Under the pieces are notes generated by a model. The model was not told where the DNA came from. It made no database searches and saw nothing but the letters and a program-made list of their open reading frames with translations. The translations under genes and the position numbers were made by a program. From a virus, in the IMG/VR virus record IMGVR_UViG_3300020020_000129, positions 1-29,790 of that record: a DNA stretch of 29,790 nucleotides. One strand, given 5' to 3'. This document shows, in pieces, positions 2,676-29,790 of this stretch. Each line of letters begins with the position of its first letter. Positions within the stretch are counted from its first letter, which is position 1.

Positions 2676-2714
2676 GATGCCCTCTCCTGTTCGAATGATT
2701 CGCTCATACTGCCA

Positions 2715-4873: not shown

Positions 4874-4881
4874 GGTGTGCC

Positions 4882-5235: not shown

Positions 5236-5237
5236 CG

Positions 5238-6052: not shown

Positions 6053-6076
6053 CTGTTCACTTCCCTTGGTTGGGTG

Positions 6077-6480: not shown

Positions 6481-6812
6481 AGGTACCTCCATGTGATTCG
6501 GGTGACCTCGGTATCCGGGGTGCACTTCATGTGCTCACAGAACATATTGATGAACCACATTGGCGTGTGCCCGGTGAACCCTTCGCGGCGCACGTCTTCG
6601 GCGGTGATGCGGCGCAACGGTTCGCGGCGTATCGCGGTTATCTCCACGTCGCATATCCGTTCTATCCGCTCACCCGGTTTGCGACCCATTACCTTACGGC
6701 ACAACGTGATCCGGTCGCCTACCTTGAGGAACAGCCAGCCGAGCCGGCGTGTGACTGTCTTCGTACGCTGGCGCACCGCGTACTCTGTGAGCGCCACGGA
6801 CATGAGCCTCAC
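6477..6812 (-). CDS. ASCH-domain protein
   Basis: A 111-residue protein. I chose the GTG at 6812 because GTGA overlaps the preceding stop by 4 nt, giving MRLMSVALTEYAV; an ATG at 6803 is possible. TKTVTRRLGW, KVGDRITLCRKVMG, a beta strand with EVEITAIRREPLRRIT, EDVRREGF and the terminal TEVTRITWRYL follow the layout of phage ASCH proteins, a PUA-like fold thought to bind RNA or modified nucleotides. It is coupled by a 4-nt overlap to the next gene. The biological role in phages is unsettled. Confidence 0.85.
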   Translation of the reverse strand: MRLMSVALTEYAVRQRTKTVTRRLGWLFLKVGDRITLCRKVMGRKPGERIERICDVEITAIRREPLRRITAEDVRREGFTGHTPMWFINMFCEHMKCTPDTEVTRITWRYL

Positions 6813-7363: not shown

Positions 7364-7470
7364 CTGGTCACCAGCTCGAAGGGTATGTAATCGAATATCA
7401 CTTCTAGGCCAGCAGCCTTGAACAGTGCAATCAGGACAGCGACGATGACGACCGCCTTTACCAGCTTCAT
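7360..7470 (-). CDS. Mini membrane protein (36 aa)
   Basis: MKLVKAVVIVAVLIALFKAAG then a short polar tail ending LVTR: one hydrophobic helix after a basic start. Both ends show 4-nt overlaps (ATGA with the preceding stop, GTGA with the resolvase start), which supports translation despite the small size. No known family; possibly a regulator of membrane state or simply a coupling peptide. Confidence 0.6.
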   Translation of the reverse strand: MKLVKAVVIVAVLIALFKAAGLEVIFDYIPFELVTR

Positions 7471-7838
7471 TCCGCCTCGTCTCTGATCGCCGTGACCGTG
7501 TAGCCGGCATCGGTCAGGTACATCAGGGCGCAGTCAGCGAAGTCGTTCGGCCGCTCGGTTGCACCCTCCTGCTTTATGAAGCCCCGGAACGCTTTCGCCA
7601 GGATCTCAGCGCCGATGTCAGCCAGGCACGCGGGACAGTCGACAAAGCCGCGTCCGGGTACCTCACGCAATCCGCTACGTGGCGTTGGGCATGCGCGCTT
7701 GCCGCACTTGGTGACCATCTGCGCCACGGTGTCATCAGGCCATTCGATGATCTGGTGATTCAGTCCGTCGTACATGGTCAGCGGCGCATCGTCGGTCAGG
7801 GTCACGGTGTTGCCCTGGTAGTCGTACCACTGCCTCAT
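7467..7838 (-). CDS. Hypothetical protein (123 aa)
   Basis: Starts MRQWYDYQGNTVTLTDDAP. The middle has four cysteines in two pairs (KCGKRAC and DCPAC), compatible with a zinc site, and the C-terminal third is helical (AEILAKAFRGFIKQEGA, NDFADCALMYL). Four-nucleotide overlaps join it to genes on both sides. It belongs to the recombination operon by position; function not recognised. Confidence 0.65.
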   Translation of the reverse strand: MRQWYDYQGNTVTLTDDAPLTMYDGLNHQIIEWPDDTVAQMVTKCGKRACPTPRSGLREVPGRGFVDCPACLADIGAEILAKAFRGFIKQEGATERPNDFADCALMYLTDAGYTVTAIRDEAE

Positions 7839-8239
7839 AGCGCCACCGGCCTAAGTAGCGTGCCGACTGTTTCCTGTTGCGGTGCTTCGGCTATCTGCTC
7901 AGCGAACACGCTGAACAGGTCCACCTGTGCCGGGTTCTCGACCTCTGGGCCGGTAGGCGCCGGCGGTGAAGGTGGCCCGTCGTCGCCGTCGTCTTCATCG
8001 TCGTCAACGAACTCGGAACAGTGGTAGTCCTGTACACCCTGGTCGGTCCACTCCTTCGGTATCTTCTGCAACAGCGCTACCAGCAGGATCGGGCACCCTT
8101 CCTCTACTTCATCGCGCTGGAATGGCCCATCCACCTTGCACGTGTAGCACCAATGGCCCATCCAGCCGTATCCCATGGTGCCGTTGGAGAACGGCGCTCG
8201 GTCCTCAGCGTCAGCGCTGATCGCGTCATAGCTACGCAT
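7835..8239 (-). CDS. Hypothetical Cys-containing acidic protein (134 aa)
   Basis: Starts MRSYDAISADAEDRAPF at the ATG at 8239, which has GGAG 7 nt upstream and lies 8 nt inside the recT end. HWCYTCKVDGPF, then a Cys and a DYHC, could form a metal site. These are followed by a run FVDDDEDDGDD, a proline stretch, and a helical C-terminus (VDLFSVFAEQIAEAP). The acidic, proline-rich linker suggests two modules. No family recognised; it sits directly downstream of recT. Confidence 0.7.
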   Translation of the reverse strand: MRSYDAISADAEDRAPFSNGTMGYGWMGHWCYTCKVDGPFQRDEVEEGCPILLVALLQKIPKEWTDQGVQDYHCSEFVDDDEDDGDDGPPSPPAPTGPEVENPAQVDLFSVFAEQIAEAPQQETVGTLLRPVAL

Positions 8240-9143
8240 CGGCTTTCTCCTTCGGCGGTAGCTGACCCGAGCCGGCCGCCGGCACGGCCGGCCACCCGGT
8301 AGCGGGTGCCGTTCCGTCGACGTCGACCAGCTCGCCGTCAAGGAAGTCGCCAGCACCGCCGTACAGCGACGACACAGGCCGATCGTCCACCCCGCTCCAC
8401 CCGCGCGCCGCTGACTCCGCAACGGCCACGTGGGCACGGTATTCAGAGCTGGTAGGAACGAACCCCGCCAGGACGTGCAAGGCGGTCTTCTTCCACATCG
8501 GTTCGGTGTTCGGCCCTTCGCCGTCCGCCGGCCCCCAGAAGTTGCCGCCACCCGCCTTACTCGCCGAGCGCGACATGCTGCGGTGCCGGTCGATTTCGTA
8601 GCGCGGCAGCCACGCCACCTGTGAGATACCGCCACCCCGGAAACGCGCCCACGCATACACCACCTTGAGCGGACCGCGCTGCGCCGGCGACGCGAACTCG
8701 TCATACTTGTGGCGTGGCAACACATCCGTGGTCCGGTTGAACGACAGCACAGGGTCTTTCTCGCGGCCCACCTCTACGTGTACCGACTCGACACCACCCG
8801 CCCGGAAGATGCGATCCACCACACCGCGCCATTCCTCCATGCCGACGATGGCCTTACCACCGGGTGCGTTCTTGTCGTTGAACGCGACCAGTGAGAACGT
8901 GCCCTTCATCGGCAGGTGGCCGAGCGCACCGCACTCGCGTAGCACGAGGATGAGAGATGCCGGGTTACGCTGCGCCGCTTCTAGCAAGTCCCTGTCCCGC
9001 TTGACATAGGCCACGGCCAGCTCTACGAACGCTTCCGGTTTGATGTGCGATGGCACCACGGCCGCGAAGTGTGACGCGTAGCTACCGATCAGGTTCCTTG
9101 CATGGGTTATCAGGCTGACCTCTTGCCCTTGCGCGGTGCTCAT
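8232..9143 (-). CDS. recT: RecT-family single-strand annealing protein
   Basis: A 303-residue protein with the RecT core: HIKPEAFVELAVAYVKRDRDLLEAA, PASLILVLRECGALGHLPMKGTFSLVAF, VGMEEWRGVVDRIFRAGG and EPMWKKTALHVLAGFVPTSSEYR. These proteins coat single strands made by a partner exonuclease and anneal them to homologous DNA. The partner exonuclease gene is directly upstream, overlapping by 4 nt (ATGA). The C-terminal 60 residues are variable and proline-rich. Confidence 0.95.
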   Translation of the reverse strand: MSTAQGQEVSLITHARNLIGSYASHFAAVVPSHIKPEAFVELAVAYVKRDRDLLEAAQRNPASLILVLRECGALGHLPMKGTFSLVAFNDKNAPGGKAIVGMEEWRGVVDRIFRAGGVESVHVEVGREKDPVLSFNRTTDVLPRHKYDEFASPAQRGPLKVVYAWARFRGGGISQVAWLPRYEIDRHRSMSRSASKAGGGNFWGPADGEGPNTEPMWKKTALHVLAGFVPTSSEYRAHVAVAESAARGWSGVDDRPVSSLYGGAGDFLDGELVDVDGTAPATGWPAVPAAGSGQLPPKEKADA

Positions 9144-10216
9144 GACAGTCTCCTCAGTTCGTCGACCTGTTGCGGGCCGACCTCGTAGCCGCGTTTCTTG
9201 TAGATGTTGCGCCGCACCACATACGCGCCGGCCGCGTCGACACCTATCTGTGCGTCGCCTAGCGCGGCGCGTATCTTGTTCTTGGCTTCCTCCAGGGCGA
9301 GCTTGGCGCTTGCCGCTTCATCGTGCCAGTGCTGGAATTCGAGGATGTCGGCTAGCGGCAGCGTTGTGGTCTTGCCGTCCACGTACGCGGCGTGAAGCTG
9401 TTGCAGCGTCGCCGTTGTAGCGGCGTGCCCGTCAATGTCGGGTGGCTGGTTGTCGATCAGCGACCGTATGAACCAGGCGCCATGGTCCAGCCAGAAGCGC
9501 AGCTTAGTTTGCGCCGCATCGTCGAAGGGCAGGACGTAGGCGGCCGGCCGTTTACCCGCCAGGCGCATAAGGTGACCGCGCTTGGCGCCAAGGATCGCGC
9601 ACTGCACATACACTTGCACCCGGTGATGTTCGGGCACCTCGTCTGTACCTGGTGTCCCCCAACCCTTTCCGCCTTCATCGCTCTTACACTCGACAGGCTC
9701 GATCACCAGCTGAGGATCGTTGTCGAAGTTGTGCTGTGCGTTGGCGTTCGGGTGGACGTGGCAGTCAGCGCCGTGCGTACACTCGTCGACCAGGTTCCGC
9801 ACCGCCAGGAAATCCGGGGTGCACACCAACCACTCATGGTCATAGTGGCCGTACAGCGCCGAGCCTGGCCGGCACAGCATGGCGTCGGGGTGCGAGTCGG
9901 CCCACAGTCCGCCTATCACGTCTTCCAGCTTGTGCCCTACCACCATCGCCGTGTTCGCTTGCGGTTGCGACCAGGTGTCTTGCTTCGCCCACCACAGCGA
10001 GAACTCCGATGTGTGCGGTGACAGGCCGATCACGCCGGCTAGCTCCGATGCGCCGATGCGCCACCCGCCGGCGCCGTCACTGCGGCGCGCGTCCAACCAT
10101 TCCGATTCGGGTGCACCCCGCTTGAGGAGTGCCCGCGCGGGGCTGCGAGGTACCGCAGCCCAACGCGCTTTTACCTTGCGTACGTCGGTACGCGTCAGCG
10201 GTACGTGGGTCTTCAT
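9140..10216 (-). CDS. YqaJ-type recombination exonuclease with Cys/His insertion
   Basis: A 358-residue PD-(D/E)XK exonuclease, probable partner of RecT. Motifs: IGASELAGVIGLSPHTS at 55-70, GHKLED (Glu98), catalytic Asp135 in CTPDF, Glu176-x-Lys178 in VECK, and HRVQVYVQ in the usual helix. Between Asp135 and Glu176 there is an insertion of roughly 40 residues with C146-T-H, C152, V-H-P at 154-156 and His162, a likely metal-binding knuckle not typical of the family and shared with the gene at 6139-6480. The C-terminal region (helical, KLALEEAKNKIRAALG) is usual for this group. Start is coupled to the lipoprotein gene upstream. Confidence 0.9.
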   Translation of the reverse strand: MKTHVPLTRTDVRKVKARWAAVPRSPARALLKRGAPESEWLDARRSDGAGGWRIGASELAGVIGLSPHTSEFSLWWAKQDTWSQPQANTAMVVGHKLEDVIGGLWADSHPDAMLCRPGSALYGHYDHEWLVCTPDFLAVRNLVDECTHGADCHVHPNANAQHNFDNDPQLVIEPVECKSDEGGKGWGTPGTDEVPEHHRVQVYVQCAILGAKRGHLMRLAGKRPAAYVLPFDDAAQTKLRFWLDHGAWFIRSLIDNQPPDIDGHAATTATLQQLHAAYVDGKTTTLPLADILEFQHWHDEAASAKLALEEAKNKIRAALGDAQIGVDAAGAYVVRRNIYKKRGYEVGPQQVDELRRLS

Positions 10217-10392
10217 GGCCGGCGCTCCCCGGGCAGCGTCGGCATCGGGTTAGGTGTCGGCACCGGGCACCATATCGGCCCATCGGGACCTGTCCCGCAT
10301 AGGGTGGAGTTGGCAGGTTGCGGCTGAGGTTTCGGCTCGCACGAGCCGGCCGTGAGGAACAGCACGATCAGGGCTGCGGCTATGGTCTTCAT
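10213..10392 (-). CDS. Tiny proline-rich lipoprotein
   Basis: A 59-residue ORF. MKTIAAALIVLFLTAGSC is a lipoprotein signal with a lipobox-like end (TAGSC), followed by a proline-rich body with two more cysteines (TLCGTG, IWCPVP). ATGA overlaps join it to genes on both sides, so it is made with the exonuclease. It resembles an Rz1-like spanin in size and composition, but an actinobacterial host has no matching Gram-negative outer membrane, so a surface or exclusion role is as likely. Confidence 0.7.
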   Translation of the reverse strand: MKTIAAALIVLFLTAGSCEPKPQPQPANSTLCGTGPDGPIWCPVPTPNPMPTLPGERRP

Positions 10393-10733
10393 CGCTTGAA
10401 CACCGCACCCTCTTCAGGTATCCGAACGGCCGGCACGCCTTGCGGCGCCGTGGGGTAGCCCCACCCGGGCGCCAGTACCTCACCCACGGCCGGTAGCTCC
10501 TTGCCGGCCCACTCCGGGGTGTTCGCGGGGTATGCCCACCGGTAGCCCTGAACCGTTGGCTCACACCAGAAGTCAGGCTTGCGCTCTTGGGTGTGGATGT
10601 TGATACAGATCTGTGCGGTTATCGCGTCGATCGTCGGCTTGGGTGGGTCGGGCAACCGTGGGTTGTCCTTGGTGGGAACGGTGCACGCCACGATAAACAC
10701 GAGTGGAAGTAGGATCGCGCCGATTCGTTTCAT
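10389..10733 (-). CDS. Predicted lipoprotein (114 aa)
   Basis: MKRIGAILLPLVFIVAC is a clear lipoprotein signal with lipobox cysteine 17. The mature part is proline-rich with a Cys pair (QICINIHTQ and WCEPT). Four-base overlaps occur at both ends. Together with the next gene it forms a tandem pair of lipoproteins in an early recombination operon, unusual company. Surface-anchored phage lipoproteins can block superinfection; that role is only suggested here. Confidence 0.75.
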   Translation of the reverse strand: MKRIGAILLPLVFIVACTVPTKDNPRLPDPPKPTIDAITAQICINIHTQERKPDFWCEPTVQGYRWAYPANTPEWAGKELPAVGEVLAPGWGYPTAPQGVPAVRIPEEGAVFKR

Positions 10734-11203
10734 TCGCTCACTCCTGGAAGTAGAGCCGGCATCGTGCCGGCGTCATAGGCTGCGGCCAACTGCGGCGCCA
10801 TCCATGTGCCCACGGTCGTGTGACCATCGGGCAATACGATGTGCGCCAAGAACTCTTGCTCAACTGTGGTGATGCCGGCGGCTACCGCCTCAAGCTTGGC
10901 CTTGATAACCAGGGCGAGCGCACGCCACCGTTGCATGACGGCTTGCTGCCGAAGCTCCTCGGCCGCTTCAGGGCGCCGGCGAGCACCGCGCTCGGGTGTG
11001 TGCGTGAACTCCCGAGCGCGTCGGTCGGGTAGCGGCACCCGGAACATGACGCGTCGGTTAGCGATCTCGAACACGATAGCCGCGTCGGTACCGCCGGACA
11101 TGTAGCCGAAAGCTGTTGCCCCGTACCGGGTTACCGTCCGCTCGATCTCGGCGCGGCTACGGTCAAGCGGCACCTTCGTGCTAGCGGCGTACCTGGTCGC
11201 CAT
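10730..11203 (-). CDS. Conserved actinophage protein of unknown function
   Basis: A 157-residue protein from the ATG at 11203, which shares one base with the WhiB-like gene stop (TGATG). RSRAEIERTVTRYGATAF, VMFRVPLPD, a basic EFTHTPERGARRRPEAAEE and RWRALALVIKAKLEAVAAGITTVEQEFLAHIVLPDG form a pattern I recognise as common in actinobacterial phages and prophages, next to recombination genes, without a known activity. Confidence 0.8.
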   Translation of the reverse strand: MATRYAASTKVPLDRSRAEIERTVTRYGATAFGYMSGGTDAAIVFEIANRRVMFRVPLPDRRAREFTHTPERGARRRPEAAEELRQQAVMQRWRALALVIKAKLEAVAAGITTVEQEFLAHIVLPDGHTTVGTWMAPQLAAAYDAGTMPALLPGVSE

Positions 11204-11613
11204 CACTCGGCCCACGCAGCGATAGGCATGGGCGGGTGTACGAACTCCTTCAGCAGCGCGGCAGGGTCGCCGGCGCGCTCGGCCAGCAGCTCACCTAACA
11301 GCGTGCGTTTCGCCGCGTCCTTCGCGTCCTGGTCAGCCTTACGCTTGAGCGCCTTACGCTCGTTAGGCGTTGTACCGCCTAGGATGCCGTCAGGCTGGCC
11401 CGAGCCGAGCGCCCACGTCAGGCACTTGTCCTTTACCGGGCAGCGCTTGCAGAACGCCTTAGCGGCAGCTACAGCAGGCGCCGGCCACAAGCTCTCGCGG
11501 CCGATGGGAAAGAACAGCTCGGGATCAACGTTTGAACATGCCGGGTTGGCCGAAGGGTCTAGCCGTGGGTCCGTGTGTGGCCGATGGTTGATACGCTTGC
11601 TGTGAGTGGTCAC
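11203..11613 (-). CDS. wbl: WhiB-like iron-sulphur regulator
   Basis: A 136-residue protein from the GTG at 11613 (GGAAGG about 8 nt upstream). Cys26, Cys55, Cys58 and Cys64 (C-x28-C-x2-C-x5-C) match the 4Fe-4S ligands of WhiB proteins, which bind the principal sigma factor and alter promoter choice. The turn motif, normally G-V/I-W-G-G, reads GILGG, so the tryptophan is replaced by leucine. A basic helix (NERKALKRKADQ) follows. Extra residues 85-136 form a longer tail than usual. WhiB proteins are confined to actinobacteria and their phages, a strong host clue. It follows a 123-bp gap with two hairpins. Confidence 0.92.
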   Translation of the reverse strand: MTTHSKRINHRPHTDPRLDPSANPACSNVDPELFFPIGRESLWPAPAVAAAKAFCKRCPVKDKCLTWALGSGQPDGILGGTTPNERKALKRKADQDAKDAAKRTLLGELLAERAGDPAALLKEFVHPPMPIAAWAE

Positions 11614-11642
11614 GTGGAAAACCTTCCCTTCTGTGTGATCCG

Positions 11643-11673
11643 AAGGCCTGCTACTTGCCAGGGTGCAGGCCTT
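11643..11673 (-). terminator. Hairpin (9-bp stem) before the WhiB-like gene
   Basis: AAGGCCTGC at 11643-11651 pairs perfectly with 11665-11673 across a 13-nt loop. It is the second of two hairpins transcribed between the DUF932 gene and the WhiB-like gene. No T-run follows, which is not disqualifying in actinobacteria. It could be a terminator, attenuator or processing signal. Confidence 0.55.
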
Positions 11674-11688
11674 TCGTACTGTGGTTGA

Positions 11689-11729
11689 TGCTGGCGGGCA
11701 CCGACCCAGGCGCCAGGTACCCGCCAGCA
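11689..11729 (-). terminator. Strong hairpin just after the DUF932 gene
   Basis: 11689-11702 and 11716-11729 pair over 14 positions with one G-T type mismatch, with a loop of 13 nt. The stem begins 8 bases after the DUF932 stop codon. Together with the hairpin at 11643-11673 it forms a tandem pair likely to reduce read-through into the recombination genes. Confidence 0.6.
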
Positions 11730-11736
11730 CGATCAC

Positions 11737-12867
11737 TCAGCGGATGGCCGCAGCCATCGCCATAGCCGGCAGCGCCGCAGCTTCCAGATCCCACTGACCA
11801 TCGCCGCTGTCTTCGAGCTGAGCGGCCGACGTGACGGCCTGCATCACACCGCCGGCGGTCATCTGTCCGCCAAGGATGAAGTGCTTCAGGATCTCGGTCT
11901 GCTGTTCCTTGGTGAACCCCAGCTTCTTACCCACCGTCGCGACGACGGCCGTAGGGTCGGCCACGGGGATACCGGCCGCCTTTTCAAGCTCGCGCACCTT
12001 GGCCGTGACGTAGTCCACGTCAAGGAACGTGCGCACCGCATCGGCAGTCTGCGACTGGACCAGCGCCAGGTTGGCGCGCTGCGTGGTCTCTGACACCTTC
12101 ACCACGCCGGCGTCAAGCCGTCCACCCAAGTGCACCTTGCGCGCCGCGTCGGCCGCGATGGTCATACCGTTGTTGCACACCTCGATCTCAAGGCGCGGCG
12201 TGAGACTGTACGAGCCGTTACCGGTCTCGCTATTGGTGATGACGAACCCCGCGAACACGTTCGGGCACTCGTCGCCACGCTGCCCGGTGAACGGGGAACG
12301 GTAGCCCTTCAACAGATCCGGCGCGTATGCCTTGATCTCGGGAACGGTCACCCGGACATACATGCGACGGTCGGTCAGGTCGGCCTGAATGGTGGGGTTG
12401 TCCACGCCGGCGTCACGCATGCCCTGCAAGGTGGCGAGCAGCACGTCAAAGTTGTCGATCGTCTTGTACGAGTCGGACAGGAACGCGCGCAGCACACCAG
12501 CCGTTTCGGTTTCACCATCGCCACGCAGTAGGCGCAGCAAGAACTTTCGGTCATCGACGGCCAGCCAACCGTTGACGTTGGCGTCATACAAGTCGGTCTT
12601 GCCGCGTAGCCGGCGAAGGTAGTGCACCGGGATACCGAGCTTGTCGGCCACCCCTTCGTCACCCACGCTGGTCGGGGTGTACAGCCCGTTTGAGCTGGTG
12701 ACCCCATCGGCGGTGATGACTGGGTCCAGCCCGGTCAGCACGAACGCTCCACCTTGGACGGTAAGGCTGCTGGCGGGTGCGACGACGTCAATGGAGCGGG
12801 TGCGCTGGTCTTGCAGGGCGGCGGCTAGTGCGCCTAGGTCGCTGTGGCGTACGCTTGTCTCGGTCAT
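11737..12867 (-). CDS. DUF932 family protein
   Basis: A 376-residue protein of the plasmid/phage DUF932 family: KLGIPVHYLRRL, NVNGWLAVDDRKFLLRLLRGD, RAFLSDSYKTIDNFDVLLATL, and RLEIEVCNNGMTIAADAARKVHLGGRLDAG are its usual conserved segments, with a C-terminal helical region. Its biochemical role is unknown. It is the first large early gene, between the excisionase-like protein and the hairpin pair, so it should be among the first products made. Confidence 0.9.
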   Translation of the reverse strand: MTETSVRHSDLGALAAALQDQRTRSIDVVAPASSLTVQGGAFVLTGLDPVITADGVTSSNGLYTPTSVGDEGVADKLGIPVHYLRRLRGKTDLYDANVNGWLAVDDRKFLLRLLRGDGETETAGVLRAFLSDSYKTIDNFDVLLATLQGMRDAGVDNPTIQADLTDRRMYVRVTVPEIKAYAPDLLKGYRSPFTGQRGDECPNVFAGFVITNSETGNGSYSLTPRLEIEVCNNGMTIAADAARKVHLGGRLDAGVVKVSETTQRANLALVQSQTADAVRTFLDVDYVTAKVRELEKAAGIPVADPTAVVATVGKKLGFTKEQQTEILKHFILGGQMTAGGVMQAVTSAAQLEDSGDGQWDLEAAALPAMAMAAAIR

Positions 12868-14207: not shown

Positions 14208-15242
14208 TTACGGTGTAGCGGTTGCCGGCCCGCTGGTTGCGGCGGCCGGATCGAAGGTGTGTGTGTGCGCGACCAATGACGCCGGCCCCCCGGTGCCGCG
14301 CAGCTTGGCTTGCAGAGCGCGACGCTGCGCCGCACCGAACGTCTTACCGTCGCCGGCCACCTCGGCACCCAGCACGGCCACCATGACGCCGGCGGTACCG
14401 TTGCCGAACTCGCCATCGACACCACCATGCGGGGTGAGATCCCCGCCGGCGTCGACCAGGTCACCCTGTAGCGCCTTCACGTTCTCGCTCTTGTCACCAT
14501 GCTTGCACCACATGTCTTCATCATCTCCTGTCGATTGTCCACCGGTCAGCGCGAGCAGCTGTTGCAGCGACCCGCGAAACGCATTGAGGTCAACGTTGTT
14601 GCCCAGTCCGCCGGCGTCGCCCTTGGACGTGTACTGAAGAATCGTTGCTACAGGCCAGTTTCCGTAACCTGGTGTCCACCACGATTCCGGTATCCGCGCT
14701 GCGAAAGCGTTCGGATCGTCTGGGATCGTATCGAGGTCAGCGGTCAGGTAGTGCGAGTGCCACAGGTACGGGGTGACCGCAACACCGTTCCAGCCCTTCG
14801 GCCCCCACCACCACTTGCCCGTGTACAGCAGGAACGGATGGCCACCGGTGAGCCGGCGCCACTCCGCAGCCCATGCTTGTACGTCGGCATAGCTGGCGTT
14901 GTCTTCACAGTCCAGCTGTATCAGCAGCCCTTGCGGACCGCCGGCACGCTCCACCAGCGCGTGAAAGAACTGCGCCTGTGATGCAGCGTTGCCGGCCTTC
15001 AGCCAGTGGTACAGACCGGGCACGATACCGAGCCGGCGCGCTTCCGCAATCCAGCTAAGGAAACGGGCAGCGAACGCGGCCGACCCTAACCCGCCGGCCG
15101 ATGGTATCGACGTGCCCTCGCTGGCCTTGGTGCACATGAAGTTGTAGCCCTGCGCTTTGAGCTTGGTGAAGTCGATTCCACCCTGATAACGGGCGTGGAT
15201 ATCTACACCATGCAACACGATGGTTCCCTTCCCTTGCGTCAT
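14208..15242 (-). CDS. Endolysin: GH25 muramidase with peptidoglycan-binding domain
   Basis: A 344-residue lysin. Residues 8-230 are a GH25 lysozyme fold: GVDIHARYQGGIDF (Asp14), GYNFMCTKASEG, GLYHWLK, and the DxE catalytic pair Asp111/Glu113 in LIQLDCED, then YLWHSHYLTADLD and ILQYTSKG. Residues about 245-315 resemble a PG_binding_1 domain (SENVKALQGDLVDAGG, VDGEFGNGTAGVM). No signal peptide, so a holin is needed. The start overlaps the tip-protein stop by 4 nt. Confidence 0.93.
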   Translation of the reverse strand: MTQGKGTIVLHGVDIHARYQGGIDFTKLKAQGYNFMCTKASEGTSIPSAGGLGSAAFAARFLSWIAEARRLGIVPGLYHWLKAGNAASQAQFFHALVERAGGPQGLLIQLDCEDNASYADVQAWAAEWRRLTGGHPFLLYTGKWWWGPKGWNGVAVTPYLWHSHYLTADLDTIPDDPNAFAARIPESWWTPGYGNWPVATILQYTSKGDAGGLGNNVDLNAFRGSLQQLLALTGGQSTGDDEDMWCKHGDKSENVKALQGDLVDAGGDLTPHGGVDGEFGNGTAGVMVAVLGAEVAGDGKTFGAAQRRALQAKLRGTGGPASLVAHTHTFDPAAATSGPATATP

Positions 15243-15922
15243 GGCCCCTTGTACTCGAACGTCACACTAACGGTAGGCAGCGCCGTGGCCGTGGTCAGCC
15301 CGGTACCGCTGTTCTGCCACATGTTCACCCCGAGGTAATCGCCGGCCACACCGGTGACCGAGCCGGCGAAGAAAAGGCTAGTCACACCAACGGCTTGAGC
15401 CGTGCCTATGACTTGGGTACCGTCCACGCCGGCGCCGTTCTTGAGCAGGTGCACGGCACGGCGCGCGGTTGCGTTGGCGGACCACGCCGCTAGCCCCATG
15501 AAGTCGTACGCGCCGCTGATTGGCAGGGTGTAGCGGCTCGGGTTAGTCGACGCGTCGGCCCACCCGCCGTGTGTGTCCCTGACTGCTGTGTCCCACTCCA
15601 CGGGCACGTTGGTGTCATTGTTCAGGGTCTGTGCGGCCACCCGGCGTAGCACCGCGTACGGCGCCGTCGTGGCGGTAGCGCCACCGTTGCGGCCGAGGAT
15701 GATTGCCCGCCGGCCGTGGAAGGCAGGGTCAGCGTTGACTACCAGCGCCACCCATACCCGATCGCCGATCGTCAAGGCGCCCACCAGGTTGTCGGGTACA
15801 CCCAGCATCGGTGTGGTGTCGCCGTCCAGCCGGATCGTGAGCGGCGAATCGTCGGTAACCGTTGCCCACACGAGAAGGTTGCGGTGCGCCAGCACAGGCA
15901 GGAGTAGATCCATGTTGTTCAT
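15239..15922 (-). CDS. Tail-tip protein with C1q-like head, putative receptor binding
   Basis: A 227-residue protein. Residues 1-75 form a small beta domain (OB-like: LVWATVTDDSPLTIRLDGD, GDRVWVALV) that resembles the attachment part of actinophage tip proteins. Residues about 90-227 (VRDTHGGWADASTNPSRYTLPISGAYDFMG, LKNGAGVDG, GDYLGVNMWQNSG) match the jelly-roll pattern of C1q/TNF-like trimers in phage adhesins. The ATG at 15922 overlaps the previous stop by 4 nt. Last of the tail genes, just before the endolysin. Confidence 0.8.
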   Translation of the reverse strand: MNNMDLLLPVLAHRNLLVWATVTDDSPLTIRLDGDTTPMLGVPDNLVGALTIGDRVWVALVVNADPAFHGRRAIILGRNGGATATTAPYAVLRRVAAQTLNNDTNVPVEWDTAVRDTHGGWADASTNPSRYTLPISGAYDFMGLAAWSANATARRAVHLLKNGAGVDGTQVIGTAQAVGVTSLFFAGSVTGVAGDYLGVNMWQNSGTGLTTATALPTVSVTFEYKGP

Positions 15923-18240
15923 AGGTCGACCACCTCAACGAGTGTCGTCTTGACCAACGCTGTCGGGTCGAGCGCGATCGCCATCTTGGTGACGACGTGG
16001 CGAGCGTCCACACCCGCCGGCACACGCCGCAACCGCACCGCGTTGTTGAGTGTCAGGTCAGGCACCAAGGCATGGCGCACATCGACCGACGCGGTAGGCG
16101 ACGTCAGCTCGATCAGGCGCCGGCGCGCGTACGCGTCCAACACGTTCTGGTCTGCTGCCTCAACACCCGTGGCGCTCGCGACGATCCACCGTCCACGCGC
16201 CGCGAACGAGTAAGGCGAGTCGGGTTCCTCATTGGTGGCAACCGATATCAGCGCCTCAGTGTCACCCGAGCCTTGCCCTACGGCCACGAACTTGTTGGGG
16301 ATCGCGAACAGGTCCACGTCGATGACGAACTCTGGCGAGTAGATAGACGTTGCGCCGTCAAGGAATTCGTACCGGATCGGGCGTGCGGCCGGCCGAACGT
16401 AAGGCTCCCCGCGATACTGCCCGTTGCCGTCACACCACAAGCTGAAGTAGCCGGCCACGGCCAACAGGTCGTTGACGATACGAAGCTTGGCGGTGCCCGC
16501 TTCCCACGACAACGGCGCCGCGAGGGTAGCCGCGCTCGGCGTGATCGCGTAGTTGGTCTCACCGCTAGACGCGATGACGGTCACCACCGCCGTGGTGATA
16601 ACCGTTCCAGCGTCAAGGCTGTAGGTTCCGTCAACCTGGTCCTGGTCGAGTACGGTCAGCTTGTCCAGGAGCTTGGCTTCCCACGTCCGGCCGGTATCGT
16701 CCCACTCTTGTGGTGCCTCGCTGAACAGGAACATACCCAGCGGGATCTCTGGTAGCCCTTCGATGATGGCCACCGGGCGCACCCGATCGCTGAGCCAGTT
16801 CACCGTTTGCCCGACGTCGACAACGTCAAGGGCGCCACCAGATTTGATGGTTGCCCCGGTGCTGAAGTCGACGCTTCCCTTTACCACCCCGGTCAGTGTG
16901 CCCAGCGGCGCCTCGTCCTGGCTGTAAAGGTCATAGCGGAACGACGTCATGCGGTTGCCGGTAAGGATTTCCTGCTCGCTCAGCGCCCGTACAGGTACCA
17001 GCCCACCGGGCAGGAAGATGGTCCCGCTTCCGATGAGCGTCATGATTCCATCGGTCAGGCCAACCGAGTCTGTAGCCGTCTCGAACGTTGTCGGCTCCAC
17101 CGTGGCCGTATCGGTCAGGCCGGCTGAATCGGTCTGCGCCACCATCTTGGACACTTCCGAGATGATGCCGTCAGTCAGGCCAACCGAATCGGTGGCCACC
17201 TTGCCAGGCTGTTCCGAGTATGGGTCGCTCAGTCCGGCCGAATCGGTGCGGACCATGCCGATAGTTTTCGCCACGCCATCGGTAAGCCCCACCGAATCGG
17301 TGTGTACCTTCGTGGGCACCATCGCCGTGGTGTCGGTCAGGCCGGCCGAATCTGTGTGCACGATAAGGGTTGCCGCCTGAACCTGGGACGTGTCCGTCAG
17401 GCCGGCAGAGTCGGTTACGGTGCGGTCCCACGCTCGGGTCAGGATCGGGCCGGCATCGGTCAACCCAACCGAGTCGGTTGCTACCTTGCCTATCGCCTTG
17501 GCCGATGTGTCGGTGAGGCCGGCAGAGTCGGTCTGTGTCACCGTGTGCGCGGTGCCCGATGCGGCGGCCGGGTTGATTTCGATCCACGCGAATTGCAGGT
17601 TAGTCGAGCTAGCGGCAGGGTTGAACCGCAGCGTGTTCGCCACGGTGTTGACATCGTCGGCCGTGGTGCGACGCGGGAAACAGTAGCTGATCTGACCCGA
17701 GCCGACGTTACCCGTACCGTCAAGGGTGCACCCGCTACCGGCGGTAGGTGCGCCCGTGGCATCCCAGTCGCACACCGACATCACGCCCCACCCGCCCGTT
17801 GATTCGGCCGTGTAGTTCTGCGCTATCGCGGTAGCCGACTGGGAGCCGGCCTTACCGGTCGCGCCGATCGGGTCGGTGGTGTCCTGCCCGGTGAAGACCC
17901 ACACCCGGGCGGCTTTCTCCACAACGCTTGTGCCCGTAGTGGTGATGCTCACGGTCATGGCCGCGCTGCTCGTAACCGGCGCCGTCCAGATAGCAACCTG
18001 CCCGGACACTTGCGGGCCGGCGTCGACACGCGAGCGCCACTGCCTCAGCGTGTAGGTCAGTGGCGTACCACGGCTATCGGTGATGGTGGGCTGGTTGGGG
18101 TTGCTGCTGTTGCTGCTGTTGCCGGCAAGGCACACCACTAGCAGCGAGCCGGCCGGCGGGGTGAAGCTGGCAGAGGTCACCGTGCCGACAGTCGACGTGG
18201 TAAAGACGGCCGGCGCCGACGCATCGAGAGCTAGCGTCAC
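15919..18240 (-). CDS. Tal-like minor tail protein with nine TDSxGLTD repeats
   Basis: A 773-residue protein. Residues 1-235 are a beta-rich N-terminal domain containing an NSSNSSN run coded by a trinucleotide repeat. Residues 237-397 hold nine copies of TDS(A/V)GL(T/S)D, spaced 18-21 residues. Residues about 400-773 look like the tail-associated baseplate protein of actinophages (VDFSTGATIKSGGALDVVDVG, PLGMFLFSEAP, TWEAKLLDKLTVLD, GYFSLWCDGNGQYRGEPYV). It starts at a GTG with GGTGG 7 nt upstream. The repeats probably form an extended spacer between tail attachment and a host-facing domain, though here the adhesin-like part is N-terminal. Confidence 0.85.
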   Translation of the reverse strand: MTLALDASAPAVFTTSTVGTVTSASFTPPAGSLLVVCLAGNSSNSSNPNQPTITDSRGTPLTYTLRQWRSRVDAGPQVSGQVAIWTAPVTSSAAMTVSITTTGTSVVEKAARVWVFTGQDTTDPIGATGKAGSQSATAIAQNYTAESTGGWGVMSVCDWDATGAPTAGSGCTLDGTGNVGSGQISYCFPRRTTADDVNTVANTLRFNPAASSTNLQFAWIEINPAAASGTAHTVTQTDSAGLTDTSAKAIGKVATDSVGLTDAGPILTRAWDRTVTDSAGLTDTSQVQAATLIVHTDSAGLTDTTAMVPTKVHTDSVGLTDGVAKTIGMVRTDSAGLSDPYSEQPGKVATDSVGLTDGIISEVSKMVAQTDSAGLTDTATVEPTTFETATDSVGLTDGIMTLIGSGTIFLPGGLVPVRALSEQEILTGNRMTSFRYDLYSQDEAPLGTLTGVVKGSVDFSTGATIKSGGALDVVDVGQTVNWLSDRVRPVAIIEGLPEIPLGMFLFSEAPQEWDDTGRTWEAKLLDKLTVLDQDQVDGTYSLDAGTVITTAVVTVIASSGETNYAITPSAATLAAPLSWEAGTAKLRIVNDLLAVAGYFSLWCDGNGQYRGEPYVRPAARPIRYEFLDGATSIYSPEFVIDVDLFAIPNKFVAVGQGSGDTEALISVATNEEPDSPYSFAARGRWIVASATGVEAADQNVLDAYARRRLIELTSPTASVDVRHALVPDLTLNNAVRLRRVPAGVDARHVVTKMAIALDPTALVKTTLVEVVDL
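17050..17532 (-). repeat. Nine in-frame repeats of a TDSxGLTD coding unit
   Basis: Each unit is a 24-bp core separated by 30-39 bp of variable, in-frame sequence. The cores alternate between Ala and Val at the fourth position, and between Thr and Ser once at the seventh. A tenth related unit (SDRAGLTD) occurs in the next gene upstream near 18860-18885. Such near-identical DNA could expand or contract by recombination. Confidence 0.9.
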
Positions 18241-24308: not shown

Positions 24309-24908
24309 TCAGCCCACCTTACGCGGCCGGCGTAGGCCACGCAGCGACACGGCAACGTCAGGGTCTAGCTGGGACAGCAGCCGCAGCTGTGACTCTGGTG
24401 AGCCGGCGATACCGAACGCGGCATCACGCCTAGCCAGGAAACGGTTGATCTGTAGCCGTGTACCCAGCGGCACCTGTGCCGGGAATGCCGTCCACCCGAA
24501 CGGATTCGCGGTGACCGATACCTCGAACTCTAGCCCGGTCACCGCGACGGGCGCGGTGCGCTTGAAAGTGATTGCCTCCCAAGGCTTGCCCTCTTGCGGC
24601 GCGTTGACAGGTTCCTTGGTGTACTCGGTAGCGGCCACCCCATCGACGCTGATCGTCAGCCCCGACGCGCTCTGGAAGTCGTCCGTGTCGACGATCCACC
24701 GCTCCCGCTCATCGTCATACCAGGCCGTGTAAAGGCGTTCCTCAGCACCGGCCGTCTTACCGAACTGGCGGTTACAGTGATCGTCGATACCGCGCGAGGC
24801 GGCCGAGATGATGAGCGCTATCTCAGCGTCGTCTAGTTCGTCCGTCACCGCCAGACGTACCCACCTCTTAGCGTCTTCCAACACGACGTAATCAGGCGCC
24901 CATGCCAT
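24309..24908 (-). CDS. Head-tail connector (adaptor, gp6-like)
   Basis: A 199-residue protein. VVLEDAKRWVRLAVTDELDDAEIALIISAASRGIDDHCNRQFG is the helical signature of HK97 gp6/SPP1 gp15 adaptors, which form a ring under the portal. The C-terminal half is beta-rich and ends in a basic tail. The ATG at 24908 has GGAGG 8 nt upstream; a GTG 9 nt earlier is less likely. No separate stopper gene is recognised after it. Confidence 0.87.
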   Translation of the reverse strand: MAWAPDYVVLEDAKRWVRLAVTDELDDAEIALIISAASRGIDDHCNRQFGKTAGAEERLYTAWYDDERERWIVDTDDFQSASGLTISVDGVAATEYTKEPVNAPQEGKPWEAITFKRTAPVAVTGLEFEVSVTANPFGWTAFPAQVPLGTRLQINRFLARRDAAFGIAGSPESQLRLLSQLDPDVAVSLRGLRRPRKVG

Positions 24909-24942
24909 CGCGGCCACCTCCTCTCAACGCTCTACAGGCCGG

Positions 24943-25371
24943 TCAGTCCTCGACGATGCGAGTCTCACCAGTCGTGGGGTTGGATGCGGTCACCACACCC
25001 GTTTCCGGGTCGGTGGTCAGGGTTTCCCCTGTGTCCGGATCGATGGTTGTCTCCACCGCCGGCGTGTTGATAACCACGTCATCGAGTGTGGTCACCTCAC
25101 CCTTGATTGTCTCGCCCGTGTTCGGGTCGATGCGGTCCGCCTCAGTCACGGTCACCACGCCGCTAGCGCGGTCGAGCGTGTAGCGGGCACCCGATACCGG
25201 ATCGACCGCGCTACCCGACGATTCGAGGTCGTGACGCATGCCCTCAGACATGAACGGCTTGAGCCGCTTGGGTTGCGCCTGCACCCCTGCCCCGGTGAGC
25301 GGCGCCACGTCAGCCGTGGTCACCACGTTGTCAGCCTTGTCACCCGTCCGCTTGCCTTGCCCTGTTGCCAT
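24943..25371 (-). CDS. Hypothetical head protein with DPxTGE repeats
   Basis: A 142-residue protein directly downstream of the capsid hairpin. The first 60 residues are polar with a basic patch (QPKRLKPF). The rest contains five related units (DPVSGARYT, DPNTGETIK, DPDTGETLT, DPETGVVTA, NPTTGETRI), probably a short beta-repeat. Position after the capsid gene fits a decoration or scaffold-like protein, but no family is recognised. Confidence 0.65.
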   Translation of the reverse strand: MATGQGKRTGDKADNVVTTADVAPLTGAGVQAQPKRLKPFMSEGMRHDLESSGSAVDPVSGARYTLDRASGVVTVTEADRIDPNTGETIKGEVTTLDDVVINTPAVETTIDPDTGETLTTDPETGVVTASNPTTGETRIVED

Positions 25372-25409
25372 TGTCCCTGTGTCCCTTCACGATGGCTCAC
25401 GATGTGCAC

Positions 25410-25436
25410 CCCGCCCTGTCGATGGGACAGGGCGGG
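25410..25436 (-). terminator. Perfect 11-bp hairpin after the capsid coding region
   Basis: CCCGCCCTGTC (25410-25420) pairs exactly with 25426-25436 across the loop GATGG. It starts 16 bases after the stop of the portal-protease-capsid ORF, and no T-run follows. It may lower read-through to downstream genes or protect the abundant capsid message from 3' decay. Confidence 0.75.
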
Positions 25437-25452
25437 ACGTTGCCTAGCTGGC

Positions 25453-28400
25453 TTACGTGGTCGGGTCGTAGATGACCTCACGCACACCGGTCAAGTCGGT
25501 GCACGCCAACGCCTTGTAACCCCAGATACCGACGTGGATCGAATCCACCTCGATCTGATCGAACGTCAAGCGCTGCGGCGCGCTCGCCCACCCGGACACG
25601 TCGGCCCGATCGAACAGGTACGACGATGCCGCAACCGCACCAGTCGCGGCGAGCGCCCACGCTGGCCGGCCGATCAGACCAGCGACCAGGATGGACGAGA
25701 AGAACTCGCCCGTGGTACCGGTCGCGTTGGACGCACCCACCACCGGGAACAGCTTGCGGCCGGCCGTGTCCTTCGCCGAGATCAGCCGCTTGTACAAGTC
25801 GACCTGAACGAAGAAGTCCCGCATGCGGAAACCGCCACGGATGAACTGGAGCGGCGCCAGCTGGTCAGTCAGCGACGCTTCCAGCGCGGCGTCAACCGCG
25901 TTGGTCGTGATGGTCAGACCGGTCGGGGTCAAGCCGTCCAGCAACGCCACGGCCGACGCCTCAAGGGCTTCGAACCAGCCGCGCACCATCTGAGTCCAGA
26001 TCAGCCCCGACAGTTGCGGGTTGCCGCCCTGATCCCACGCGAGCCGCGAGATCTTCACCTTGCCGCTTACCGCGCTCGGGGTGATGGTCTGCGACGTCGC
26101 GACGAACGTGCCCGCTGTCGGCTCGGTACCTTCGGAGTGCGCACCGACCAGACCCGATGAGCTTGAGAACTTGGGGAGGATGAACGGGGTTGCGTTGTCG
26201 ATCGTCCCCTTGTTGATCGCGTTCCAAATCGGGTACTCGTATTCCTGCTGATCCACGTACAGATCAGGCCGGCCGGTCGAAGGGTTCAACGATGCCGCGT
26301 CGGCCGCGCTGACGAACTGCGCCGACGTCATGCCCCGGGCGTGTGCCTCCATGCGGTTGAAGTAGTCCGTCATGAAGGTGGTTGCACGCGTCAACGCCTC
26401 AGCGTTGTTGTCCCGCAACCCTTGGATCACGTCAGTCGAGAAGTCGAACTTGCCGGCGCGAAGGTTGCCCTTGCGATCGAACACGTACGCCGGCGGTTCG
26501 GTCGTGGCCGTGACCGCTGTCGGACGGGTCGGGTTGACCACCGGGCGTGTCTCGGCCGGCAGCTGCTGCGCCGGCACACCGATACCGAGCAAGGCTTGCA
26601 GGTGGCCTTGCGCGGCGAGGATGCCGAGCTGGTCAGCGGACAGGGCGAACGCGGCCGTTGCCGGCGCGGCCTGTGCGGGTGCGGGTACGCCGGCCAAAGC
26701 CTGAAGCACACCCGGGGTAGCGACCAGCGTCTGTAGCTGCTCAGCGGAAAGCTGAAGCGCCGGCGCGGCCGGCACTGCGGCCGGCTGGTTGGCCGGCGGG
26801 TTGTTCTGTGGACGGGAAGCGCACGCCGCCCCTGGCGCGTGCCGCGTACCGCAGACGGCGCAATCTTCCATTGCGGTGCCTCTCTCTTGTGTGGCAACAA
26901 CTTTCGTGATCCTTGCATCGTCAAACGCTGGCATGGCAGTGATTGACGTTTCGGTCATCGTGCACCGGTAGACGTCCCAACAGTCATCTTTGCTGTTGTA
27001 CAGGCAATCTTCGTCTAGGTCGAATTCCACGCCGGCGCTTAGCCCGTCATAGACTTCATCCTCAGCGTCGATCAGGACGTCGGTAGCGGCCTGGCTACGG
27101 CCGAGCTTGTACTTGCCGTTGACACCCGCCTTGGTCTGTGTCAGGCCGAGCGCCTTACCCACGGCCGTCATGTGGTCGATCAGGAACTTGACGCGGCTCA
27201 CCGGGGTTGACCATTCGGCCGAGCCTGGCATGAACCGGAAACCCATGCCGTACTTGCGCACGATCTTCCCGTACGGCAGCGCCATACCCCACACGGTGCG
27301 GGTTTCCTGCTCCACCCGGAAGTCAACCTTCACCGCGTCAAGCTGAATGCTCTGCTTACCGTGCAACGTGACCGGCCTGTCAATGGTCGGCGCGTTGAAG
27401 CGCAGCGCCGTCCGTGAGCTGTTCTGCATCATGTCCTCCGGGTTGTCCTCTCCGGCCGCCTCGCGTGCTATGCGCTCGGCCTCAGCCACCGGGTCAGGCG
27501 CCGGCGCTGGTTTCTCCTCCGGCGGTAGCGGCGGCCGGCCGATCGCGTGGCGAATCTCATCGCGGGTCAGTACGTCGATCTCGTGGTAACCCTTGTGCAC
27601 GGCCAATTGCTCCGTGGGGTTGGACTTCAGGTAGTCCTCCAGATCGAGGATGACCCGATGCCCACGGCGGGTGACGTCACCCATCGACAGACGCTGTGTG
27701 ATGGCCAGCATGTACGGCGCCAGCACATCGTTGAGCCGATCGCGCCGGCGGTCAACCGCATTAGCGTACGTGCGTGAAGTGGTTGACACGCCTAGGTCTT
27801 CAGGGTCCAACCCCAGCAGGTTCGCTATCTCAAGGGTGGCCTGCTTTTGCAGCTCTACCAGCTGCATCTGTTGCGGGGTAGGAGCATCGACCGTGTTGTA
27901 CTTCATTGATGCCGGAATCCAGCCGGTAGACCGCTTCTTACGCGCATCACGCCACCTGGCCAGGATCTTCTGAACCTCGCCGTCCTTGATCTCTTCGGCC
28001 CCCTCGGCAGGGCTGAAGTAGTCCAGCGGCCTAGGGTCGCTGGCGTACATGCCGGCCGACGCGTCCAGCAACAGCCATCGCCGGATCGCCTTAGCCCCGC
28101 CACCGTTGGTGATGCCCGGGTTAGGCGAGTCGAATCGGATCACCCGGGTAGCCGACACCTCGCGGCCGTCGATCCACACCGACGCACCGCGCGGGTCTTG
28201 CCCGTGGGGTAGCGGCGAGAGTGACCGGTGCGTGGGCGGGGTGAGGCTCACCGTGCCAGGGTCGCGCCGGCACGCGTGTACCGGGTAGTCGAACGCGTCA
28301 ACGGCGGTGATCTCCCACCAGGCGATAGCGTCAAAGATGAGATCTTCGATCGTCTGGGCCAGCGTGACCACGTTCGCCACGTCAGGATCTATCTGTTCGA

Positions 28401-28653
28401 ACAGCGGGTTACGTTGCACCACATTGGATTGGTTGAGCTGCACTATGGGAAGTGTCGCGATCGCGCAGAGCTGGTTACGGCCGCGTCGTACGGGTGCCAC
28501 CGACAACGCGGCCTCACGGCTGACTGTAGCCCCGGTCAGGGTCCGCATCTCGAAGAGAACCTGATCGATCGGGCGTGGCGCCGACTCCGAGAAGGCAAGC
28601 CGTTTCCAGGACGCGACGAAACGCGGCAAGAGAGTACTCCACCGGATCGCCAT
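25453..28653 (-). CDS. Portal-prohead protease-major capsid triple fusion
   Basis: One uninterrupted 1066-residue ORF. Residues 1-407 are an HK97-type portal (PIDQVLFEMRTLTGATVSREAALSVAPV, then DLGVSTTSRTYANAVDRRRDRLND). Residues 408-594 are an S78 prohead protease with candidate catalytic His494 (LIDHM), Ser539 (LSAGVEF) and Glu568 (MTETSITAMPAF). Residues 595-1066 are the capsid protein: a 150-residue delta/scaffold segment with CAVCGTRH and two LSA(E/D)QL repeats, then an HK97-fold shell domain (residues about 740-1066). A good ribosome site precedes in-frame ATGs at both boundaries; the ORF start itself lacks one. Portal needs 12 copies and capsid hundreds, so internal starts, proteolysis, or both must set ratios. 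Confidence 0.9.
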   Translation of the reverse strand: MAIRWSTLLPRFVASWKRLAFSESAPRPIDQVLFEMRTLTGATVSREAALSVAPVRRGRNQLCAIATLPIVQLNQSNVVQRNPLFEQIDPDVANVVTLAQTIEDLIFDAIAWWEITAVDAFDYPVHACRRDPGTVSLTPPTHRSLSPLPHGQDPRGASVWIDGREVSATRVIRFDSPNPGITNGGGAKAIRRWLLLDASAGMYASDPRPLDYFSPAEGAEEIKDGEVQKILARWRDARKKRSTGWIPASMKYNTVDAPTPQQMQLVELQKQATLEIANLLGLDPEDLGVSTTSRTYANAVDRRRDRLNDVLAPYMLAITQRLSMGDVTRRGHRVILDLEDYLKSNPTEQLAVHKGYHEIDVLTRDEIRHAIGRPPLPPEEKPAPAPDPVAEAERIAREAAGEDNPEDMMQNSSRTALRFNAPTIDRPVTLHGKQSIQLDAVKVDFRVEQETRTVWGMALPYGKIVRKYGMGFRFMPGSAEWSTPVSRVKFLIDHMTAVGKALGLTQTKAGVNGKYKLGRSQAATDVLIDAEDEVYDGLSAGVEFDLDEDCLYNSKDDCWDVYRCTMTETSITAMPAFDDARITKVVATQERGTAMEDCAVCGTRHAPGAACASRPQNNPPANQPAAVPAAPALQLSAEQLQTLVATPGVLQALAGVPAPAQAAPATAAFALSADQLGILAAQGHLQALLGIGVPAQQLPAETRPVVNPTRPTAVTATTEPPAYVFDRKGNLRAGKFDFSTDVIQGLRDNNAEALTRATTFMTDYFNRMEAHARGMTSAQFVSAADAASLNPSTGRPDLYVDQQEYEYPIWNAINKGTIDNATPFILPKFSSSSGLVGAHSEGTEPTAGTFVATSQTITPSAVSGKVKISRLAWDQGGNPQLSGLIWTQMVRGWFEALEASAVALLDGLTPTGLTITTNAVDAALEASLTDQLAPLQFIRGGFRMRDFFVQVDLYKRLISAKDTAGRKLFPVVGASNATGTTGEFFSSILVAGLIGRPAWALAATGAVAASSYLFDRADVSGWASAPQRLTFDQIEVDSIHVGIWGYKALACTDLTGVREVIYDPTT
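26879..26885 (-). promoter_or_regulatory. Internal ribosome-binding site for free capsid protein
   Basis: AGAGAGG is followed by a 7-nt spacer and the in-frame ATG at 26871 (Met595), at the protease-capsid boundary. It predicts separate translation of the 472-residue capsid part. Confidence 0.7.
27435..27439 (-). promoter_or_regulatory. Internal ribosome-binding site for protease(-capsid)
   Basis: GGAGG lies 5 nt before the second of two adjacent in-frame ATGs (27432 and 27429; Met408 and Met409), exactly at the portal-protease boundary. It predicts initiation of a protease-capsid product of about 658 residues. Confidence 0.65.
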
Positions 28654-28678
28654 GCGGACAGGCTAGCAGGCAAGATTC

Positions 28679-29790
28679 CTAATCTTCATCGTCGCCGACC
28701 AGGATTAGGCGCGGCTTGCCCACCGGTGCGGGTAGCATGCGCGCCAGATAGACGGCGCCGGCCGTGGCGTAGGCAGCGTCACAGTGCCCGCCTTTACGCG
28801 AGATCACCCACCGGTCACCCCACGGCAACCGTTCTGCGCCAAGGACATGCGCGTTCAACAGCGGATCATCTGAATGGACGATCGCCAATTTGTTGACCTG
28901 TTCGTCCAGCCCCATGCACACGTCGGGTAGCTCACCGCGAATGGTCTCCATCTTGCAGCCGGCGGGTAGCCAGTCCGGCCGCTTGTCGCTGCCCTTCGGC
29001 CGCAGCTCGGCGCCGTACGCGGCGGCCGGCCCACCCGGTAGCCAACCGAACGCACGCGGTTTGATCCTGCCCACGGCCGTCTTAAGCTCGGACACCAGCC
29101 GCGCCATGTCGTCACCTGACCAGGCGGCTACCGCCTCAACGCGGCACCGACCATCGGGCAGGACAGCGGCAGCTACCAGCGTCGCATGCTGGTTGTCCGG
29201 CGACACGTCGAATAGGACGGCCACCCGGGTACGCACGCCGGCCAGGTCTCCAGGGACGTGGCAGTCTTTCCACTTGAATTCGTCATACGCCGGTTTGAGG
29301 TTGTGCACCGACATGCACATGGTTTCGGTCTGGAATTTGCGCAGCTTGTCGCCACCGGTGCGCATGGCCTTCGCGCCCTGGCGCACCATGTTCGCGCCGT
29401 CCATCGTCCGGTTGAACTGTGGGTTAGCTGCGGCCAACGCGCGGGGATCGTCGGCGCGTGACCCTTCCGGCGCGCTGTACTCAAACCAGGCGGTACGCGG
29501 GTCGCCTTCACCCGTGCGGATGAACTCCATAGCTTCGGCGCGTGCGTCGTTGAGTACCACGCTCTTGTCACTGCCCATGTTGGACGGCAGCCACAGCTGA
29601 GCATCGGGCACGTTCTCCATCGCCGACTCAACGGCGCCCATCGCGGAATAGTCGTGGTGCTGGCGTACCTCGTCGCACACGCCACGGTGCACGGTGAGCG
29701 ACCGGCCGCCCTCCTCGTTGGACGCGGCTATCTTGTACCGCGACAGTTCGTCAGGGTCTTGCTCATCCGAGGCGTAGCACCAACACTCGT
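28679..29790 (-). CDS. terL: Terminase large subunit, C-terminal part (continues at left edge)
   Basis: This is the same gene as that at 1-633, cut by the window edge. It contains the Walker B-like CDEV again in the overlap, then EFIRTGEGDPRTAWFEYSAPEG and the nuclease domain, with the typical VLFDVSPDNQHATLVAAAV strand (catalytic Asp) and later acidic residues. The stop at 28679 lies 25 bases before the portal start. The codon frame runs on to the edge, so no start should be taken within this part. Confidence 0.93.
   Translation of the reverse strand, partial: ECWCYASDEQDPDELSRYKIAASNEEGGRSLTVHRGVCDEVRQHHDYSAMGAVESAMENVPDAQLWLPSNMGSDKSVVLNDARAEAMEFIRTGEGDPRTAWFEYSAPEGSRADDPRALAAANPQFNRTMDGANMVRQGAKAMRTGGDKLRKFQTETMCMSVHNLKPAYDEFKWKDCHVPGDLAGVRTRVAVLFDVSPDNQHATLVAAAVLPDGRCRVEAVAAWSGDDMARLVSELKTAVGRIKPRAFGWLPGGPAAAYGAELRPKGSDKRPDWLPAGCKMETIRGELPDVCMGLDEQVNKLAIVHSDDPLLNAHVLGAERLPWGDRWVISRKGGHCDAAYATAGAVYLARMLPAPVGKPRLILVGDDED
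29645..29790. repeat. Right copy of contig-end overlap
   Basis: This is the second copy of bases 1-146, with G at 29771 in place of T at 127. See the left copy; it marks the join of the circular map inside terL. Confidence 0.95.

Follow-up and report, generated by a model that had tools for sequence, protein, structure and literature searches.

The portal protein, the S78 prohead protease and the HK97-fold major capsid protein (MCP) of the virus examined here are encoded together in one open reading frame, and comparison with its relatives indicates that this three-part ORF is a genuine, long-conserved head gene. We propose that an MCP gene is nested within it, that the strength of the start sites sets the portal:MCP ratio, and that the linkers between the domains are autoproteolysed, a reading to which we assign a probability of about 0.78. 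The ORF lies in a stretch of 29,790 nucleotides, hereafter called the window (IMG/VR record IMGVR_UViG_3300020020_000129, positions 1 to 29,790). Since only about 12 portals are needed as against hundreds of capsid subunits, a conserved fusion of these proteins is puzzling until its expression is explained.

Domain architecture of the fused gene

The minus-strand frame opens with the ATG at 28653, ends with the stop at 25453, and contains no internal stop in 1066 codons (Table 1). Long ORFs arise frequently by chance in this GC-rich window, so openness by itself is weak evidence, and the modules were identified by domain and fold. The portal module matched Pfam PF04860 (1.2e-16, residues 167-370) and, using Foldseek, the HK97-type portals 3kdr (1.4e-15) and 8fql (1e-13), which identifies it as an HK97-type portal by both domain and fold. 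The protease module was assigned to the S78 prohead proteases by PF04586 (Peptidase_S78; 4.5e-5, above the family cut-off, residues 449-586). The MCP module was covered by the match to phrog_2263, 'major head protein' (4.3e-26, residues 433-1061), a PHROG family that is itself a protease+MCP fusion; when the MCP region was searched alone, neither a Pfam nor a PHROG match was obtained. The C-terminal domain (model residues 720-1066) was matched by Foldseek to the HK97 MCP 1ohg (3.4e-9) and has the HK97 shell fold. The AlphaFold2 model, for which 67 related ORFs were used as alignment input, shows three confident domains and two disordered linkers (397-444 and 582-630), with a mean pLDDT of 79. 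These matches bear out the claim of an earlier sequence-only reading that three head modules share one uninterrupted frame. The protease triad named in the same reading was also recovered across 80 fused ORFs (H494 in 78/80, S539 in 80/80 and E568 in 67/80). The E568 column holds Gly or His in 13 of the 80 fused relatives, whereas Ser539 is invariant.

Table 1 Features of the window discussed in the text.
Feature	Position	Strand	Details
Three-part fused ORF (portal + S78 prohead protease + HK97-fold MCP)	25453..28653	-	1066 aa
Portal domain	27471..28653	-	model confident for residues 40-395; PF04860; Foldseek 3kdr, 8fql
Disordered linker A, portal/protease	27322..27465	-	residues 397-444; pLDDT <50
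Candidate internal start A	27427..27439	-	GGAGG (27439-27435), then ATGATG (27432-27427; M408/M409); SD -9.5
S78 prohead protease domain	26908..27318	-	residues 446-582; H494, S539, E568; PF04586; residue conservation
Internal start B	26869..26886	-	GAGAGAGG (26886-26879), 7-nt spacer, ATG M595 (26871-26869)
Nested MCP reading frame from start B	25453..26871	-	472 aa; model, Foldseek, conservation
Terminase large subunit	28679..29692	-	phrog_9 3.6e-30; directly upstream of fused ORF; truncated by window end
Head-tail adaptor	24309..24917	-	phrog_442 7.9e-9; downstream of fused ORF
RecE-like exonuclease	9140-10216		
RecT-like protein	8232-9143		
RuvC	6809-7510		
GH25 endolysin	14208-15242		
M23-like peptidase	1866-2675		
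Replication initiation-like protein	3577-4626		

With the terminase upstream, and the head-tail adaptor, tail terminator and major tail protein downstream, the fused ORF occupies a place in the usual head-gene order. Further genes of the window were noted across 1866-12867, 14208-15242 and 15919-18240.

Read from start B, the nested product would consist of a Cys-rich N-terminus, two short helical hairpins (637-690), the conserved sequence VNPTR (706-710) and the mature shell (~720-1066), and in the model the region from 595 to ~715 appears delta-like, with an HK97-like length. At its extreme N-terminus (window 26820-26862, residues 598-611), a zinc-ribbon-like motif, CxxCGxxHxxGxxC, is found in most, not all, relatives.

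Conservation of the three-part frame

Viral contigs were searched with the full-length ORF and with its portal and MCP parts alone, and bacterial genomes with one query, which gave 149 distinct loci, four of them cultured phages; the best 80 loci per scan were taken, and the counts therefore cover the nearer part of the family. Among the matches listed, portal and protease share a single open frame in 129 of 134 readable metagenomic or prophage loci (cultured phages excluded), down to ~33% identity, and the MCP is also shown in the same frame in 124 of those 129. The check for all three domains in one protein was thus positive well beyond the window. A separate contig from another IMG dataset (L002) carries an ORF that is 95% identical to that of the window and likewise open, and the fused ORF is present in isolate genomes of Micromonospora, Salinispora, Prauserella, Amycolatopsis and Saccharomonospora; a search of the genus Micromonospora recovered it intact from 8 of 101 genomes. 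Chance and sequencing error are ruled out by the recurrence of this open frame across 129 loci, and with them a stop or frameshift missed at either domain boundary. The cultured relatives are organized differently: none has the three-part join, the portal is separate, and the protease-MCP is annotated as 'major capsid and protease fusion protein'. The suggestion that such a join is rare was therefore correct for cultured phages and wrong for this lineage, in which it is the rule.

The portal is separate in five of the 134 loci among the matches listed (L005, L007, L010, L227 and L239). In separate-portal loci, the protease frame opens by an overlap near the portal end (ATGA with GGAGG in L010; also L227 and L239). 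The portal tree requires a minimum of four state changes, with the cultured phages grouped together and the other separate-portal loci scattered among fused relatives, for which one ancient fusion followed by several later separations would be the simplest reading.

Some loci depart from the common layout in other ways. In L005 (1911-4781) and L007 (608-3844), the separate portal is extended by ~500 aa, in which a repeated LPGKHDQSSHG motif precedes a terminal ADP-ribosyltransferase domain (PF03496; 1.3e-13 and 2.7e-9, respectively), and the insertion lies exactly at the portal-protease join point of the fused relatives. L008 (~3700-4000) has an extra domain of ~60 aa (HPGGEQLRRWYVHGEGRSHWSTW...) between portal and protease, inside the three-part frame. 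In L131 (3400-3600), the protease is missing its end and the MCP lies in another frame, so that MCP could be made only from an internal start (3489, AAGGAAGG); this locus was set aside, as the loss of the protease end may be a natural deletion or a misassembly.

Internal starts within the fused gene

All in-frame ATG, GTG and TTG codons of 80 non-redundant fused ORFs (<85% identity) were scanned for an SD sequence 5-18 nt upstream. In the alignment column of M595, a strong SD precedes all 73 start codons (62 ATG and 11 GTG), while the next best column reached 31; in the other seven ORFs, a start with an SD lies within a few codons of M595, so that the site is found in 80/80 overall. In a hold-out set found later by domain-only queries, a start with an SD was present at the join in 32 of 33 ORFs, the single miss arising where the motif was matched at a wrong place within the MCP; nine additional hold-outs, which are without the motif used for placing the scanned interval, stand outside the 33. 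At site B, 100% of the ATGs have an SD, compared with 19% of 1,399 other in-frame ATGs, and the start codon mostly follows at 4-8 nt. Control stretches of the portal, protease and MCP showed no SD enrichment and mostly SD avoidance.

The SD at the join is partly forced by the Gly-Gly of the linker, and the synonymous null alone gives ~54/73 strong sites. When codons were resampled synonymously with each ORF's own usage, strong sites numbered 54 on average and 60 at most, compared with the 73/73 observed, and the mean SD energy was -6.4, compared with -8.3 at site B (z -7.4). Where the M595 column encodes Val, the codon is GTG in 11/11 cases, although GTG makes up 49% of Val codons. Because the SD occupies different codon phases and coincides with different amino acids (GGA-GGA, A-GGA-G, GAG-GT), it is the nucleotide motif that is conserved, not the peptide. 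These comparisons show that start B is conserved at the RNA level, and the fused gene contains a conserved internal start and ribosome-binding site, as expected of a nested in-frame gene. If used in vivo, as we infer, this start would yield a free 472-aa HK97-like MCP precursor.

In the AlphaFold2 model, start B falls within the disordered linker 582-630. The openness of the RNA at start B was the same as at other in-gene positions, and no sigma-70-like promoter, the only promoter type sought, was found before the MCP in 24900-28800. In 60 of 76 ORFs, site B has a stronger SD than any candidate around the full-length start. The window's own ATG at 28653 is not preceded by an SD at the normal distance, but a moderate SD (-6.2) accompanies a TTG eight codons downstream.

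A second putative internal start, M408/M409 (start A), lies inside disordered linker A of the model and would, if used, give a protease-MCP of 659/658 aa. Comparable sites occur in L017, L018 and scattered other loci and are absent family-wide; on this comparison, start A stands out clearly only in the clade to which the window belongs. Since it is not universal, no separate source of protease is evident in most members. Site A of the window may be a remnant of, or a counterpart to, the overlap start of the separate-portal loci. If most members are without start A, the protease would be made only in portal-attached form, at about one per portal chain, which would fit a procapsid containing a few tens of proteases.

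Discussion

Using start sites of different strength, one gene could supply its products in unequal amounts. Initiation at 28653, with its weak start signal in the window, would give a small amount of a ~115 kDa portal-protease-MCP polyprotein, and initiation at the SD and ATG of M595 would give a much larger amount of the free MCP precursor, comprising the delta-like region and the HK97-fold shell; in the window's clade, additional initiation at M408/M409 would produce protease-MCP as well. The S78 domain would then cleave the disordered linkers, by which the portal is released and the MCP matured. The portal:MCP stoichiometry would thus come from start-site strength rather than from 1:1:1 synthesis. 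The sequence-only reading had held that a 1:1:1 polyprotein cannot supply both portals and capsid subunits and that some mechanism must set the ratios; such a mechanism is indeed likely, given the near-universal ribosome-binding site and start at the join, while the gene probably makes something other than a plain 1:1:1 polyprotein. As for the cleavage site, a VDPTR-like motif is conserved before the shell domain (706-710) and absent from linker A in 80/80 ORFs; the idea that it is a shared site and evidence of portal release was dropped for that absence.

The alternatives account for less of the evidence. A true polyprotein, synthesized 1:1:1 and separated by the S78 protease alone, with the surplus portal and protease discarded, would agree with one open frame that has the protease in its middle, and for the two-part fusion of phage PAJU2, autocatalysis has been suggested (PMC8306868); we nevertheless consider it improbable, as it leaves unexplained a start codon and SD at the join that are present in 80/80 and 32/33 relatives and conserved at the RNA level. 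It is just as improbable, in our view, that the SD-like run serves as a translational pause for domain folding, with no initiation. The run does sit in a disordered linker between two folded domains, but it is invariably followed by a start codon at normal spacing (mostly 4-8 nt), Val at that position is always GTG, and no universal SD is found in the portal/protease linker, although that boundary between domains is just as strong.

If ribosomes shifted frame or terminated early close to the end of the portal, free portal could be made and its dosage set in that way, and a few CCCGGGC-type heptamers do occur in linker A; their density of 0.92 per kb compared with 0.85 inside the MCP, their presence in only 18/80 ORFs and their absence from the window make this explanation highly improbable. 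Many of the relatives are metagenomic contigs, which could raise the suspicion of an assembly or sequencing artefact or of a decayed prophage. However, the same frame recurs in isolate genomes and other samples, in ORFs of 33-95% identity in which the catalytic residues are conserved and the head genes keep their normal order; family-wide conservation refutes sequencing or assembly error, and the probability left to this class of explanation is negligible.

Each of the domains, two-part fusions and nested in-frame head genes are already known. HK97 has the same three folds in the same order (gp3 portal, gp4 protease and gp5 MCP), with a delta-like region before the shell, but uses three genes where the window has one ORF. 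The layout of the nested 472-aa product resembles that of the HK97 gp5 precursor, a delta domain and then the shell. In lambda, an in-frame internal start within the protease gene C gives Nu3, an abundant assembly protein. The nested product of lambda is a scaffold and its frame contains no portal, whereas the nested product in the window is the MCP.

The closest counterparts are found in 15-17 kb actinophages (Arthrobacter cluster AN phages Maggie, Adaia and Atraxa, Curtobacterium phage Root, Gordonia phages Coeur/GMA5 and Rhodococcus phage RRH1), which have a homologous protease-MCP unit and shared gene order; phrog_2263 is matched by the window ORF, Maggie and RRH1 alike. In these phages, the portal is a separate gene, often with a 4-nt overlap, whereas it is in-frame in the window and, among the matches listed, in 129/134 relatives. 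An SD-like run followed by ATG was found at the join in cultured two-part fusions: AAAGGA in Adaia, MooKitty, Root, Penoan and Kels, GAGAGG in Atraxa and CAGGAGGA in GMA5. Of the 13 cultured two-part fusions listed, 12 have an ATG with SD at the join that passes the threshold, compared with 24% of their other in-frame ATGs; EricDab and Emperor are without a clear site there. In the synonymous test, the SD of the cultured fusions was no stronger than the null (z -0.1), and the support from them therefore consists in the Met position and the contrast with other ATGs. The protease-capsid gene of OR067381.1, 'Pseudomonas phage Hadban', is ~99% identical to that of Arthrobacter phage Adaia, and its host label looks doubtful.

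Pseudomonas phage PAJU2 likewise has a protease fused to the MCP (gp03), in which an internal ATG at codon 197 has a strong SD (CAGGAGGGCAACGAC-ATG) at the join, among the strongest sites. Its portal is separate and downstream, and the fusion is an independent one in a different phage group.

Two-part protease-capsid fusions were described by Klyczek et al. 2017 (PMC5513430), and no mention of a nested start was found in the passages of that article that were covered. The same article describes a portal-MuF fusion in cluster AK, in which the portal is joined to a downstream head protein as in the window, the partner being MuF-like there and protease-MCP here. In the portions of open-licence full text covered, we found neither a portal-protease-capsid fusion nor a nested MCP start within protease-capsid fusions described, and the three-part join and the family-wide nested MCP start appear to be new to the literature.

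In conclusion, the near-universal internal MCP start offers a concrete, testable answer to the ratio puzzle. Our results also suggest that in easily grown actinophages, Maggie and RRH1 among them, the long-annotated 'protease-capsid fusion' genes are likewise nested, with an unannotated MCP start. As a more speculative extension, which we think rather unlikely, uncut portal-protease-MCP chains would form the dodecameric portal, their MCP ends would join the first shell ring, and the dozen or so proteases would then release themselves. If this is true, each procapsid would start on one portal by virtue of the tethered chains, and the fusion with its nested MCP start would be a built-in mechanism for one portal per shell. 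The fusion is a natural system for studying how portal, protease and shell meet in one procapsid.
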